From positions 1 through 33,051 of the forward strand of contig CAMDPX010000061.1 in assembly GCA_945905295.1 (NCBI GenBank): a stretch of DNA of 33,051 nucleotides, written 5' to 3'. The translations under genes were made by a program, and so were the position numbers. Under the pieces are notes generated by a model, which was given only the letters and a program-made list of their open reading frames with translations, ran no database searches and was not told the DNA's origin. Every line of letters starts with the position of its first letter. Position 1 is the stretch's first letter. Of this stretch, positions 6,309 to 16,784 are shown piece by piece. This stretch comes from Planctomyces sp. SH-PL62. Lineage in GTDB: Bacteria; Planctomycetota; Planctomycetia; Planctomycetales; Planctomycetaceae.

Positions 6309-6424
6309 TTCATCGGCCTAAAGACTCAAATTTTGGGTGAGCCCTGACTGGTCGCCAAATTCGCAAAGTGCGTCGTACGCCCCCGACGACTCGCTCATCG
6401 AACTCGGCGTCCTACAATCGGGCA

Positions 6425-8426
6425 ATGCAACCACACTCGCCAGAATCGCGCGCCGGCAGATCACACCCACAAGTCACCTCGCCATCGGACAGCCCAGAAT
6501 CGCGGGCCAGCCGTTTGAGGTTTGAGCGGTATCGGCAAAAGCTCAAACGGAGCGAACTCCCCAAGGGGAGCTTTCATGGCACCGGCGAGTCGCGCAGTTC
6601 GAAGGATCGGGTCCGTTCTTCGACGCAACTCATCGGGCAATTCTTGAGGCTGCTGATTCCGTTTCGGCGGCAGGTCATTTGGATTCTTGTGTCGGTCACG
6701 GCATCGACATTGATTGGCCTACTGCCACCGGCCGGCACCAAGTTCATCATCGACTATGGACTGAGCGGTCGGCCGGTGCCGAAGTTGTGGTTGCAACGTC
6801 TGCCGTCGCTCGCCGATCCCAAGCAGCTTTTGCTGTTCACGGTGATTGCGGTTTCGATCCTCTCGCTGTTGAAGATCGGCGTGCATGTTTGGGGACGCTG
6901 GTACGCCACCAAGATCACGAAACAAATTCAGTTGGATCTGCGGCGGCGAGTCTTCGAGCACGCCGTCCGACTGCCGCTGCATCGAGTGCAAGCGCTGCGG
7001 TCCGGCGGCGTGGCCTCGATCCTTCGCGAAGACGGCGGCAGTGTGGGCGAGCTGGTCTTCGGGATGTTGTTCAATCCCTGGCGAGCCGTCATTCAGTTGA
7101 TCGGCAGCCTCGCGATTCTGGCCTGGGTCGATTGGCAGTTGCTGATTGGCGGGCTGTTGCTCTTGCCGACGGTGTTCTTCACACATCGAGCTTGGATCAA
7201 CGGCATCCGGCCGCAGTTTCGAGTCATCCGCAAACAGCGCGAACTAATCGACGCCTCCGCCACCGAAGCGTTCGCGGGGATGCGAATCGTCCGCGCCTTC
7301 AGCCGTCAGAAACGTGAGGCGGCTCGCTTTACCACCGAGAACAACTTGATGGCTCGGCAAGAACTCTATGCCTGGTGCTGGATGCGCGTGGTCGAGATGG
7401 TCTGGGAAGCGTTGATCCCGATCGCGACGGCCGGGCTGTTGTTCTACGGCGGTTGGCGAGTGCTCGACGGACACATGACCGTCGGCGATCTGATGATGTT
7501 TCTGGTTTACCTGCTGATGCTGCTGGAACCGCTGGCGACGCTCGCCCAGAGCGCCACTCAGTTTCAGAATAGCCTCAGCGGACTGGATCGTGTCCTCGAT
7601 CTCTTGGAAGAGCCGCGTGAGATGCTCTCGACGCCCACGTCGTTGTACGTCGATCGTCACTCGGTGGCCGGAGCCATCGCGTTCGAGCAGGTCACCTTCA
7701 CGTATCCGGGCACAAGCAGTCCGGCACCAAGAATTGGCGAGCGGGGCGGGCAAGACGACGCTCAGCAACTTGGTCGCTCGCTTCTATGACCCGACCTCCG
7801 GGCGCGTGACGTTGGATGGCCGAGACCTGCGCGATTACGACGTCGAGTCATTCCGCTCACTGCTGGGGGTCGTCGAACAGGATGTGTTCTTATTCGACGG
7901 GACGATCGCCCAGAACATCAGCTACGCGCGGCGCGACGCCACCGCCGCCGAGATCCGCGCGGCCGCCGAAGCCGCGAACGCGACTGAGTTCATCGACCGC
8001 ATGACCGACGGCCTGCAAACGCTCATCGGCGAGCGCGGCGTGCGGCTCAGCGGCGGTCAGCGTCAGCGACTGGCGATCGCGCGAGCCATCTTGGCCGATC
8101 CGAAATTGCTGATCTTGGATGAAGCGACTAGCAACCTCGACACCGACAGCGAGCGGCTCATTCAACAAAGCTTGGCTAAGCTCATGCGCGGCCGCACCAG
8201 CTTCGTGATCGCGCATCGGCTGAGTACGATCGCCAACGCCGACTTGATCGTCGTCGTCGAGCACGGCCGCATCAGCCAGACCGGCACTCACGCCCAACTC
8301 ATGGCCGAAGGGGGCAAGTATCGGACAATGGTCGAACAACAAATCCACATGACACTCGGAGGCATGACCCCCGCTGCCTCTGCGGAGGCGAGTTCACCGC
8401 ATCCGTCACGAAAGGGCGACTCATGA
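6425..8426 (+). pseudogene. ABC exporter (membrane + ATPase domains), frameshifted at the Walker A region
   Basis: Two open frames together give one ABC exporter half-molecule. The first (to the TGA at 7787-7789) carries a roughly 110-residue N-terminus and the six-helix membrane domain, ending in FEQVTFTYPG at the start of the ATPase. The second resumes at SGAGKTTLSNLVARFYD and contains the Q-loop (VVEQDVFLFDGT), signature LSGGQRQRLAIARA, Walker B LLILDEA and H-loop IAHRLS. Between YPG and GKT only about 13 residues remain where the family has about 27, and the frame changes. A deletion of about 40-47 bp with length 2 mod 3 would explain both. As read, no intact ATPase can be made without frameshifting. 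An assembly error is possible. The ATG at 6425 is provisional since no clear ribosome binding site precedes it. The last four bases overlap the next gene (ATGA). Confidence 0.8.
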
Positions 8427-14953: not shown

Positions 14954-15429
14954 GGCAACTCCTGCGAAGTTGGAACGGGGACGTGGGTTCGCCGTCAGGA
15001 TACCAAGTCCATCCTCACGCCAACGAGGCAACCGCTGGCCGAAACGGGACATCAGCACCGATCCGAACACATCTCGCTGATCCCGACATTGCCTTCCAGA
15101 AACGTCCCCACCAACCTTGAGAAGTGTCGAATTAATCCATGCAATTGCTCGACACAGATGTGACCGATCGCCCCTCTTGGCGATCCCGTTGCTTGTTTCC
15201 GGCGAATGTGCGTCGATAGAGTCCCACCCGCGTTGAGGGTCACCCCTCGCTCAGGAGTCCCGCCCGTGAACTCGCGACGAAATCCCACCCGGTCGCTCGA
15301 TCGCTGCTTATTCGCGGCCGTCACTCTCCCTGGCCGGTTTGCCTCCAAGGGCCGGAACCCGCACCGCCTGATCCCTCCGGCGAGCCGATGTTCGGTTCGC
15401 TCCCAGATCCTTCCTCCGAGGAGAACGCT
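14954..15429. other. 476-base divergent intergenic region
   Basis: This gap separates the minus-strand hydrolase cluster from the plus-strand peroxiredoxin gene and must hold promoters for both directions. No convincing -35/-10 pair, gene or RNA was recognised. Its 3' end carries CCGAGGAGAA, the ribosome binding site for the gene at 15430. Confidence 0.5.
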
Positions 15430-15984
15430 ATGTCTTGGAAAACTTCCTTCGTCCCAGTTTTATCGGTGGCACTCATGATGACCGCTTCAATCGCTCAGTC
15501 CGAGGAATTGAAAGTCGGTGCCGATGCGCCTGACTTCGAGTTGAAAGCCAGCGACGGCAAGACCTACAAGTTGTCGAGCTTCAAAGGCAAACAAGCGGTC
15601 GTGGTCGCTTGGTTTCCGAAAGCCTTCACCGGCGGCTGCACCAAAGAGTGCAAGTCGATGCGCGAGCACGGCAAGTTGATCCGCGAGTACGATGTCGCCT
15701 ACTTCACCGCCTCGTGCGATGAAGTCGAAGGAGAAAAAGGAAACGCCGCGTTCGCCAAGTCGCTGGATCTCGATTATCCGATCCTCAGCGATCCGACCCG
15801 CAAGACCGCCAAAGAGTATGGGCTGGTCGCCGACGACAAAGGGAACGCCAAGCGAGTCACTTTCTACATCGGCAAGGACGGCAAGATTCTGTTCATCGAC
15901 AAGGAAGTGAAGACGGAGCTTCACGGCGAACACATCTCCGCGAAGCTGAAAGAACTGGGCGTCGCCAAAGCCCCGAAGAAATAA
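15430..15984 (+). CDS. Secreted peroxiredoxin (AhpC/TSA, Bcp-like)
   Basis: The 184-residue protein begins with a signal peptide (FVPVLSVALMMTASIAQSEE). A peroxiredoxin domain starting VGADAPDFELKASDGK follows. The peroxidatic cysteine is C70 in FPKAFTGGC, with a second cysteine four residues later (C74), as in Bcp-type enzymes where the resolving cysteine is nearby. The enzyme should reduce hydrogen peroxide or organic peroxides in the periplasm, using a thioredoxin-like partner. The redox protein at 16221 is a possible partner. The ATG at 15430 follows GAGGAG with proper spacing; an upstream GTG/ATG would displace the signal peptide. Confidence 0.9.
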   Translation: MSWKTSFVPVLSVALMMTASIAQSEELKVGADAPDFELKASDGKTYKLSSFKGKQAVVVAWFPKAFTGGCTKECKSMREHGKLIREYDVAYFTASCDEVEGEKGNAAFAKSLDLDYPILSDPTRKTAKEYGLVADDKGNAKRVTFYIGKDGKILFIDKEVKTELHGEHISAKLKELGVAKAPKK

Positions 15985-16159: not shown

Positions 16160-16220
16160 ACTCAGTCAGCCGCGCGTGCGGCTGGCGTTCTGTTGTTCCT
16201 CAATTGAAGGAGATGCTCAG

Positions 16221-16784
16221 ATGAGACGGTTCTTTGCCCCCACACTCGTGTTGCTGGTTGCAACGGCGAGCTTGTTGGCGGCAGAGCTGAAGTCCGGTCT
16301 GCAAGTCGGCGATGCCGCAGGCGTGTTCAACGTCCGCGATGTCACCGGCCCGAACAAGGACAAATCGCTCTGCTATCGCTGAAGATACGGTGCTCGTCCG
16401 GTGGTCGCGATCTTCACCAGATCCATCACGGACGAATTGACCAGTTTGGTCAAGCAAATCGACGAACAAGTCGCCCAGAACGCAGACAAAAAGATGGCCG
16501 CGTTTGTCATCCTGCTCAGCAATGATGCGGATGGAGACGAAGCCAAGCTGAACGCACTCGCGGAGAAGGCCGGCATCAAGACGGGCAAAGACGCCAACGT
16601 GCCGCTGACCATCTTCGACGGCGTAGCTGGACCTCCCAACTACAAGGTTGCCGAGGACGCGGAAGTCACGGTCCTCCACTGGAAGGAACGCAAGACGATC
16701 GTCAACCACGCGTTCGCCAAAGGCAAACTTGATAAAGAAGGCGTCAAGAAAGTCGTCGAAAGCACCGCTGAAATCCTGAAGTAG
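16221..16784 (+). CDS. Thioredoxin-like secreted protein with in-frame TGA (candidate selenoprotein)
   Basis: Read with the TGA at 16380-16382 as an amino acid, this gives 187 residues. There is a signal peptide (FFAPTLVLLVATASLLAAE), then VGDAAGVFNVRDVTG, then C51-Y-R-(TGA)54-R-Y-G-A-R-P-V-V-A-I-F and a thioredoxin-like C-terminal part. The frame stays open with normal composition for 134 codons after the TGA. That argues against an old pseudogene. Related planctomycete proteins, as I recall them, have CYxC here, so TGA would replace the second cysteine of a redox CxxC. CxxU is common in selenoproteins. A hairpin fitting a bacterial SECIS follows at once. The alternatives are a recent TGC-to-TGA nonsense change or a sequencing error. 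AAGGAGATG precedes the ATG at 16221. It lies 236 bases after a secreted peroxiredoxin, so an electron-donor role is conceivable. Without recoding, only a 53-residue fragment is made. Confidence 0.65.
16380..16416 (+). promoter_or_regulatory. Possible bacterial SECIS hairpin directly after the in-frame TGA
   Basis: TGAAGAT (16380-16386) pairs perfectly with ATCTTCA (16410-16416). Inside, CG (16388-16389) pairs with CG (16408-16409). An upper stem CG-T-CC/GG-T-CG closes a GGU loop (16400-16402), with a 5-base bulge on the 5' side. The loop begins with G and lies 17 bases after the TGA, within the range described for bacterial SECIS elements. Pairing was done by eye, so chance folding is not excluded. 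Confidence 0.45.

Follow-up and report, generated by a model that had tools for sequence, protein, structure and literature searches.

According to the available text of a 2026 catalogue of 119 selenoprotein families (PMC13188914), most bacterial SECIS elements place the apical loop 16 to 37 nt from the UGA, the bacterial SECIS (bSECIS) model comprises an apical loop of 3 to 9 nt, an upper stem of 4 to 16 bp, and a G at one of the first two positions of the loop with G or U after it, and some putative bacterial SECIS elements depart from this model. The same catalogue lists, in its Table 1, several families with the redox motif C-x-x-Sec (CxxU), including SelW-like, AhpD-like, Trx7/PDZ NF041199, Prx-SUH NF045827, and others, and the locus described here has this motif in common with them. 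In planctomycetes, the selenoproteins of two organisms have been reported, with FdhA and FmdB named in the accessible text (PMC4807772). Our reading is that the present locus represents a new family of selenoproteins, in which the SECIS is displaced and the gap is bridged by a helix.

The gene lies in the middle of the window, that is, the whole 33,051-nt stretch of DNA that was analyzed, and the features relevant to its protein product are as follows.

15388 to 15984, forward strand: peroxiredoxin gene (AhpC-TSA) upstream of the selenoprotein gene, encoding the Cys form
16221 to 16784, forward strand: predicted selenoprotein gene for a putatively secreted thioredoxin-fold protein with C-x-x-Sec, 187 aa if the TGA is Sec
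16221 to 16283, forward strand: signal-peptide-like N terminus, MRRFFAPTLVLLVATASLLAA, judged by eye, with low pLDDT at residues 1 to 20
16371 to 16373, forward strand: TGC, Cys51, the first CxxU residue, invariant in 37 alignment rows
16380 to 16382, forward strand: TGA, codon 54, read as selenocysteine on the basis of homolog comparison and selA association

An AAGGAG sequence at 16207 to 16212 lies 8 nt upstream of the ATG of this gene. The translation of 16221 to 16784 on the forward strand, MRRFFAPTLVLL...SLCYR*RYGARPVV...EILK*, contains a single internal TGA and terminates at TAG; the frame is thus open on either side of codon 54, as the original prediction had stated, and the signal peptide that it placed before the TGA is matched by a signal-peptide-like stretch when judged by eye. 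Read with Sec, the region becomes SLCYR-U-RYGARPVVAIFTR, with the motif CYR-U-RYG.

The homolog search covered the window's own genome together with 98 relatives (99 genomes in total), and a homolog was present in 80 of them. Among the matches listed, 27 rows from 26 of the 99 genomes, the window's own included, carried an internal TGA, with identity down to 37%. These 27 rows and 46 of the remaining listed matches formed a set of 73 aligned rows, in which the codon-54 column held U in 27, C in 46, and no other residue; the alignment proposed with the original prediction therefore returned Cys or TGA at this position in 73/73 rows. Within the genus, the same TGA was found in six complete homologs and one split homolog, and the window's own genome also encodes a CxxC paralog (L127). 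A scan with a TGA-specific motif across one genome per species (84,980 species) yielded 48 loci, 45 of which were homologs with the TGA and 3 of which were unrelated, several of the 48 representing the same organisms as in the 99-genome search. According to record titles, the 45 homologous loci comprised 41 planctomycetes, three labeled "bacterium," and one labeled "Actinomycetota" (L162), a distribution obtained with a motif derived from planctomycete sequences, which cannot show absence in other groups. When the U/C label was mapped on a 72-row tree, from which the truncated G003 row was left out, 9 changes were counted versus ∼21 after shuffling, and at least 4 of the 9 were forced by well-supported branches, suggesting several switches between the Sec form and the Cys form. 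The homolog rows are related and partly near-copies: some of the 72 TGA rows available are almost identical versions of one organism drawn from two collections, and 48 remain at <93% identity. Tandem copies were also observed, both of them Sec forms at G076:C8:141683-142947 and one Sec with one Cys form at G034:C57:234144-235581, G062:C94:21976-23162, and G089:C8:2511-3653.

Downstream of the TGA, two RNA helices were recognized in the coding sequence.

16394 to 16404, forward strand: 5' arm of P1, putative spacer helix of the SECIS element (shuffle test, covariation)
16423 to 16435, forward strand: 3' arm of P1 (shuffle test, covariation)
16437 to 16453, forward strand: P2 hairpin, TTGACC-AGTTT-GGTCAA, putative SelB-binding SECIS hairpin, loop at 16443 to 16447

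P2, with the consensus CUUGRCC-AGUYU-GGUCAAG, lies within the coding region and was present in 70/71 TGA rows versus 1/46 Cys rows, where 71 of the 72 TGA rows were used for this count and for the effective spacing, the truncated G003 row being left out. The one TGA homolog lacking P2 is L162, a MAG labeled Actinomycetota, which either uses another SECIS or is a mislabeled or diverged planctomycete. The one Cys homolog with P2, at G090:C2:22595-22611 (L228, L037; TTGACCGGTCTGGTCAA), possibly preserves a fossil SECIS after a recent loss of Sec. Codons +19 to +24 were near-fixed at synonymous sites in 42 TGA genes (TTG in 36/42, [GA]CC in 42/42, AGT in 39/42, GTC in 41/42, and AAG in 32/42) but not in 43 Cys genes, and the change of TTG to CTG was accompanied by a change of AAG to AGG, AGA, or AGT, by which the pair was regained (UA in 38 and CG in 6 of 44 sequences). 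In total, 98.1% of P2 cells were paired, and the covariation score was 0.193 versus 0.128 after shuffling, with 0/500 shuffles as high for either measure. When synonymous codons were shuffled (100 shuffles per gene, in 43 of the 48 nonredundant TGA genes and 42 of the 46 Cys genes, after removal of four Cys rows and five TGA rows, namely, L162, one that was short, and three that had a 9-nt insertion), the mean z for P2 was -2.39 in TGA genes versus -0.04 in Cys genes; the corresponding values were -0.26 versus -0.14 in the control region (nt 90 to 147) and -0.38 versus -0.31 in the region just after the UGA (nt 3 to 45). RNAalifold, applied to 44 TGA sequences, called P2 and nothing else.

P1 pairs nt 13 to 30 with nt 42 to 57, with a shuffle z of -2.35 in the 43 TGA genes versus -0.33 in the 42 Cys genes and a covariation score of 0.226 versus 0.152 after shuffling (0/500). 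It has no single register, the clades differ, and 76.5% of cells were paired in the structure tested; since RNAalifold found P2 alone in the 44 TGA sequences, the case for P1 comes from the shuffle tests together with counts made in a single selected register. Five covariation measures were computed per helix, and for both helices two of the five failed against shuffles, namely, pairs changed on both sides (138/500 shuffles for P2 and 373/500 for P1) and further pair types (97/500 and 308/500, respectively). Folding of the 42 nt after the TGA showed no difference between the TGA and Cys forms (P = 0.23), nor did a search with a generic bSECIS model over the first 60 nt after the UGA (15/48 TGA versus 15/46 Cys). 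Judged from these alignments, the predicted element is a TGA-specific RNA structure under selection.

Across the 99 genomes, the P2-like pattern occurred at 66 places versus 15 for a reversed control. The 30 loci retained held 31 motif occurrences, 17 of them within the selenoprotein family; the other 14 were taken as unrelated frames. Outside the family, a P2-like motif, CTGGCCAGTTTGGCCAG, was seen at G000:C91:21961-21977 and in the same-genus genomes G005, G006, G009 (two), and G011. Searching 12 genomes of the genus with the R1 covariance model gave 17 matches, which corresponded to 7 copies of the selenoprotein gene and 10 Cys paralogs of it.

Compared with the bSECIS model, P2 is alike in being a hairpin 3' of the UGA within the coding region with an apical-loop G followed by U or G, and both its 5-nt loop (AGUYU or GGUCU) and its 6- to 7-bp stem fall within the loop and stem ranges of the model. 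In contrast, its raw spacing lies outside the range of 16 to 37 nt, the distance from the UGA to the P2 loop being 60 nt, or 69 nt where a 3-codon insertion intervenes, and, unlike in a canonical bSECIS, a separate long helix (P1) stands between the UGA and P2. P1 typically starts ∼12 nt after the UGA, a position that may be near the tunnel entrance, and ends 1 to 3 nt before P2. With P1 looped out, the effective UGA-P2 distance had a median of 20 nt and a range of 13 to 27 nt, with 93% of 70 rows within 16 to 37 nt; these values were obtained by letting two segments fold freely as a duplex, which may favor P1, and the Cys control for P1 is the shuffle test. Two other families offer a comparison. 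In FdhA from the same class, five TGA genes carried GUGCCC-GGUCU-GGGC[A/G]C, whose loop lies ∼18 nt downstream of the UGA, close to the effective median for P2, and the 45-nt minimum-energy fold reproduced this loop for four of these genes, with L212 folding differently; its GGUCU loop is identical to the P2 loop of some members of the present family. In the Sec-peroxiredoxin, a hairpin CGCUC-CGUGA-GAGCG could be drawn by eye with its loop 21 nt after the UGA, and the 90-nt minimum-energy fold showed it in one of five sequences (L158). Thus, among the three families compared, the distal SECIS position is peculiar to this CxxU family, and FdhA is the better comparison.

From these covarying, TGA-specific helices we infer SelB binding to P2 and a spacer role for P1. 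In the mechanism proposed, SelB with Sec-tRNA-Sec would be recruited to a ribosome at the UGA by the P2 loop (AGUYU or GGUCU) 60 to 69 nt downstream, and the intervening ∼40 nt would fold as P1, so that P2 would in effect stand ∼20 nt from the UGA, as in a canonical SECIS. The full reading, a secreted thioredoxin-fold CxxU selenoprotein of Planctomycetota in which P2 recruits SelB across a folded P1 spacer, is in our judgment very probable, with the spacer model carrying most of the doubt; that planctomycetes possess a composite SECIS of this kind, in which P1 folds out ∼40 nt of coding sequence and brings P2 to the canonical distance in an uncatalogued CxxU family, appears likely. An arrangement in which Sec is inserted at the UGA but SelB binds to P1, or to the variable tip of this helix, with P2 as an accessory or expression element, seems unlikely. 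P1 is also TGA-specific, and its tip lies roughly at least 25 nt from the UGA, inside the 16 to 37 nt given in the available text of the published model (PMC13188914), but this tip is unconserved, whereas the P2 loop is near-invariant and in some members is that of FdhA. If the composite P1/P2 reading is true, a bacterial SECIS need not directly follow the UGA, and the family makes it testable how the ribosome and SelB gauge the UGA-SECIS distance. SECIS searches limited to 16 to 37 nt after the UGA would miss such a displaced architecture, and other selenoproteins may therefore be similarly hidden. Gene callers that take UGA as a stop would likewise truncate the CxxU family, which adds a selenoprotein family widespread in Planctomycetota; in the papers that could be searched, there is little description of the selenoproteomes of this phylum.

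The window's genome encodes selA, selB, and selD at 518, 342, and 291 bits, respectively, all over cut-off. Of the Sec machinery named as a check on the original prediction, these three genes were accordingly found, whereas tRNA-Sec was not found in the genome's own assembly (476 contigs, 97% complete), though 9 of the 11 other genomes examined from its genus have it. Eight candidate tRNA-Sec loci in this assembly were checked, and all fell on tRNA-Ser, -Gly, -Cys, or -Phe genes. The tRNA-Sec gene was also not found in G002, G019, and G055, which carry the TGA gene; in G007, G050, and G062, it lies close to the end of a contig, and partial copies occur at G010:C23:65484-65554, G006:C125:681-752, and G009:C2:1124-1189. 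These partial copies are perhaps insertion sites of mobile elements, which could explain assembly breaks there. Considering the presence of the gene in 9 of 11 same-genus genomes, its contig-end positions, and its partial copies, we attribute the missing tRNA-Sec to the fragmented assembly. An Rfam search of the window and of the selA, selB, and selD stretches gave no match at the gathering score. Among the matches listed, selA was detected at E ≤ 1e-20 in 26/26 TGA genomes versus 35/73 others (Fisher P = 2.6e-7) and was over cut-off in 25 of the 26, being split in G061; tRNA-Sec was over cut-off in 22/26 TGA genomes versus 28/73 others (Fisher P = 6.5e-5), both tests counting related genomes as independent. 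The presence of selA, selB, and selD and the restriction of homologs to Cys or TGA support the Sec insertion originally predicted, and on this comparative evidence, Sec would almost certainly be inserted at the codon-54 UGA.

Three other readings of the UGA were weighed against Sec. Decoding as Cys or another standard residue by a near-cognate or suppressor tRNA could draw on Cys as the alternative at codon 54 and on the missing tRNA-Sec, but it is very improbable in view of the selA association (26/26 versus 35/73 among the matches listed), the presence of selB and selD, the SECIS-like loop motif, and the ordinary stop function of UGA in other ORFs of the window. TGA terminates 9 of 23 hand-picked window ORFs, so UGA is not reassigned genome-wide, and global reassignment was rejected as an explanation. 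A true stop, making the locus a pseudogene, a nonsense mutation, or two separate polypeptides, would agree with a GTG-start ORF of 127 aa that covers the downstream half alone, as well as with the missing tRNA-Sec; this is hardly credible, since the TGA is kept in 26 genomes among the matches listed, every one of which has selA, since intact coding sequence flanks the TGA on either side, and since the RNA element predicted to be under selection is TGA-specific. An error that turned TGC into TGA during sequencing or assembly, a general possibility in a fragmented assembly, or a chance TGA can be dismissed, as the same codon is TGA in 27 listed homolog rows from 26 genomes, including the six complete and one split same-genus homologs and many other genera.

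The thioredoxin-like character proposed for the protein was upheld by structure prediction. AlphaFold2, run on 37 rows with the TGA read as Cys, gave a pLDDT of 91.6 and a pTM of 0.85, and the predicted fold is thioredoxin-like (b-a-b-a-b-a-b-b-a). Foldseek returned 473 PDB matches at E ≤ 0.001, and the 50 listed were largely thioredoxin-fold thiol oxidoreductases and peroxiredoxins by title; among these, the best included SMc02350, a putative PDI, ResA, DsbE, and a 1-Cys Prx, with E values of ∼1e-7 to 1e-6 and TMq of 0.5 to 0.6. The fold is thus common to the window protein, the TlpA/ResA/DsbE-like oxidoreductases, and the AhpC/TSA peroxiredoxins. In thioredoxin and TlpA, CxxC follows the strand, whereas the CxxU of the window protein (residues 51 to 54) precedes the putatively equivalent strand (61 to 66); a pre-strand site would be unusual for a thioredoxin-fold active site. 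We infer secretion and redox chemistry, and the product would be an oxidoreductase, probably with a Cys51-Sec54 selenenylsulfide.

The original prediction did not recognize the family, and our searches agree. A Pfam scan of the window protein, AhpC/TSA, Redoxin, and TlpA included, gave no match over cut-off, the best score in the family being 13.8 bits to AhpC-TSA for one member (gathering cut-off of 26); NCBIfam release 20, selenoprotein models included, gave only matches far under cut-off, at noise level (E ≥ 0.016), for the window protein and four members, and a PDB profile search gave no convincing match. In the available text of the 119-family catalogue (PMC13188914), no family matched by name, motif, or tested NCBIfam model, the window protein being set apart from the families without a model by name, motif, and Pfam scan only. 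Nor was the family found in the accessible portions of the literature searched, in which few subscription journals are covered and which included the deep-Sep (PMC12013277) and GOS (PMC2398784) papers, PMC5029168, PMC1242214, and PMC8659212; it may have been listed earlier among the planctomycete candidates of PMC4807772.

The adjoining peroxiredoxin of the original prediction was confirmed as the AhpC-TSA gene upstream. Within the genus, the window and L184 encode a Cys form of it, whereas a Sec form (YPKAKTGGUTAEC) is present in L158, L168, L193, L198, and L199, resulting in two adjacent selenoprotein genes; the selenoprotein peroxiredoxin motif PxxxTxxU fits the adjacent gene at these five loci, which is distinct from the CxxU protein. 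The oxidoreductase would perhaps serve this peroxiredoxin as its partner, and a common pathway for the two proteins is conjectural; the CxxU gene has different neighbors in other genera. At 11 loci (L157, L164, L165, L170, L177, L179, L190, L191, L194, L195, and L201), a same-strand downstream neighbor, seemingly secreted, showed WD/YNCE-like repeats by eye. Elsewhere in the window, an ABC transporter at 6368 to 8426 occupies two overlapping frames (6368 to 7789 and 7590 to 8426), an apparent frameshift, with the overlap around the Walker A region as judged by eye.
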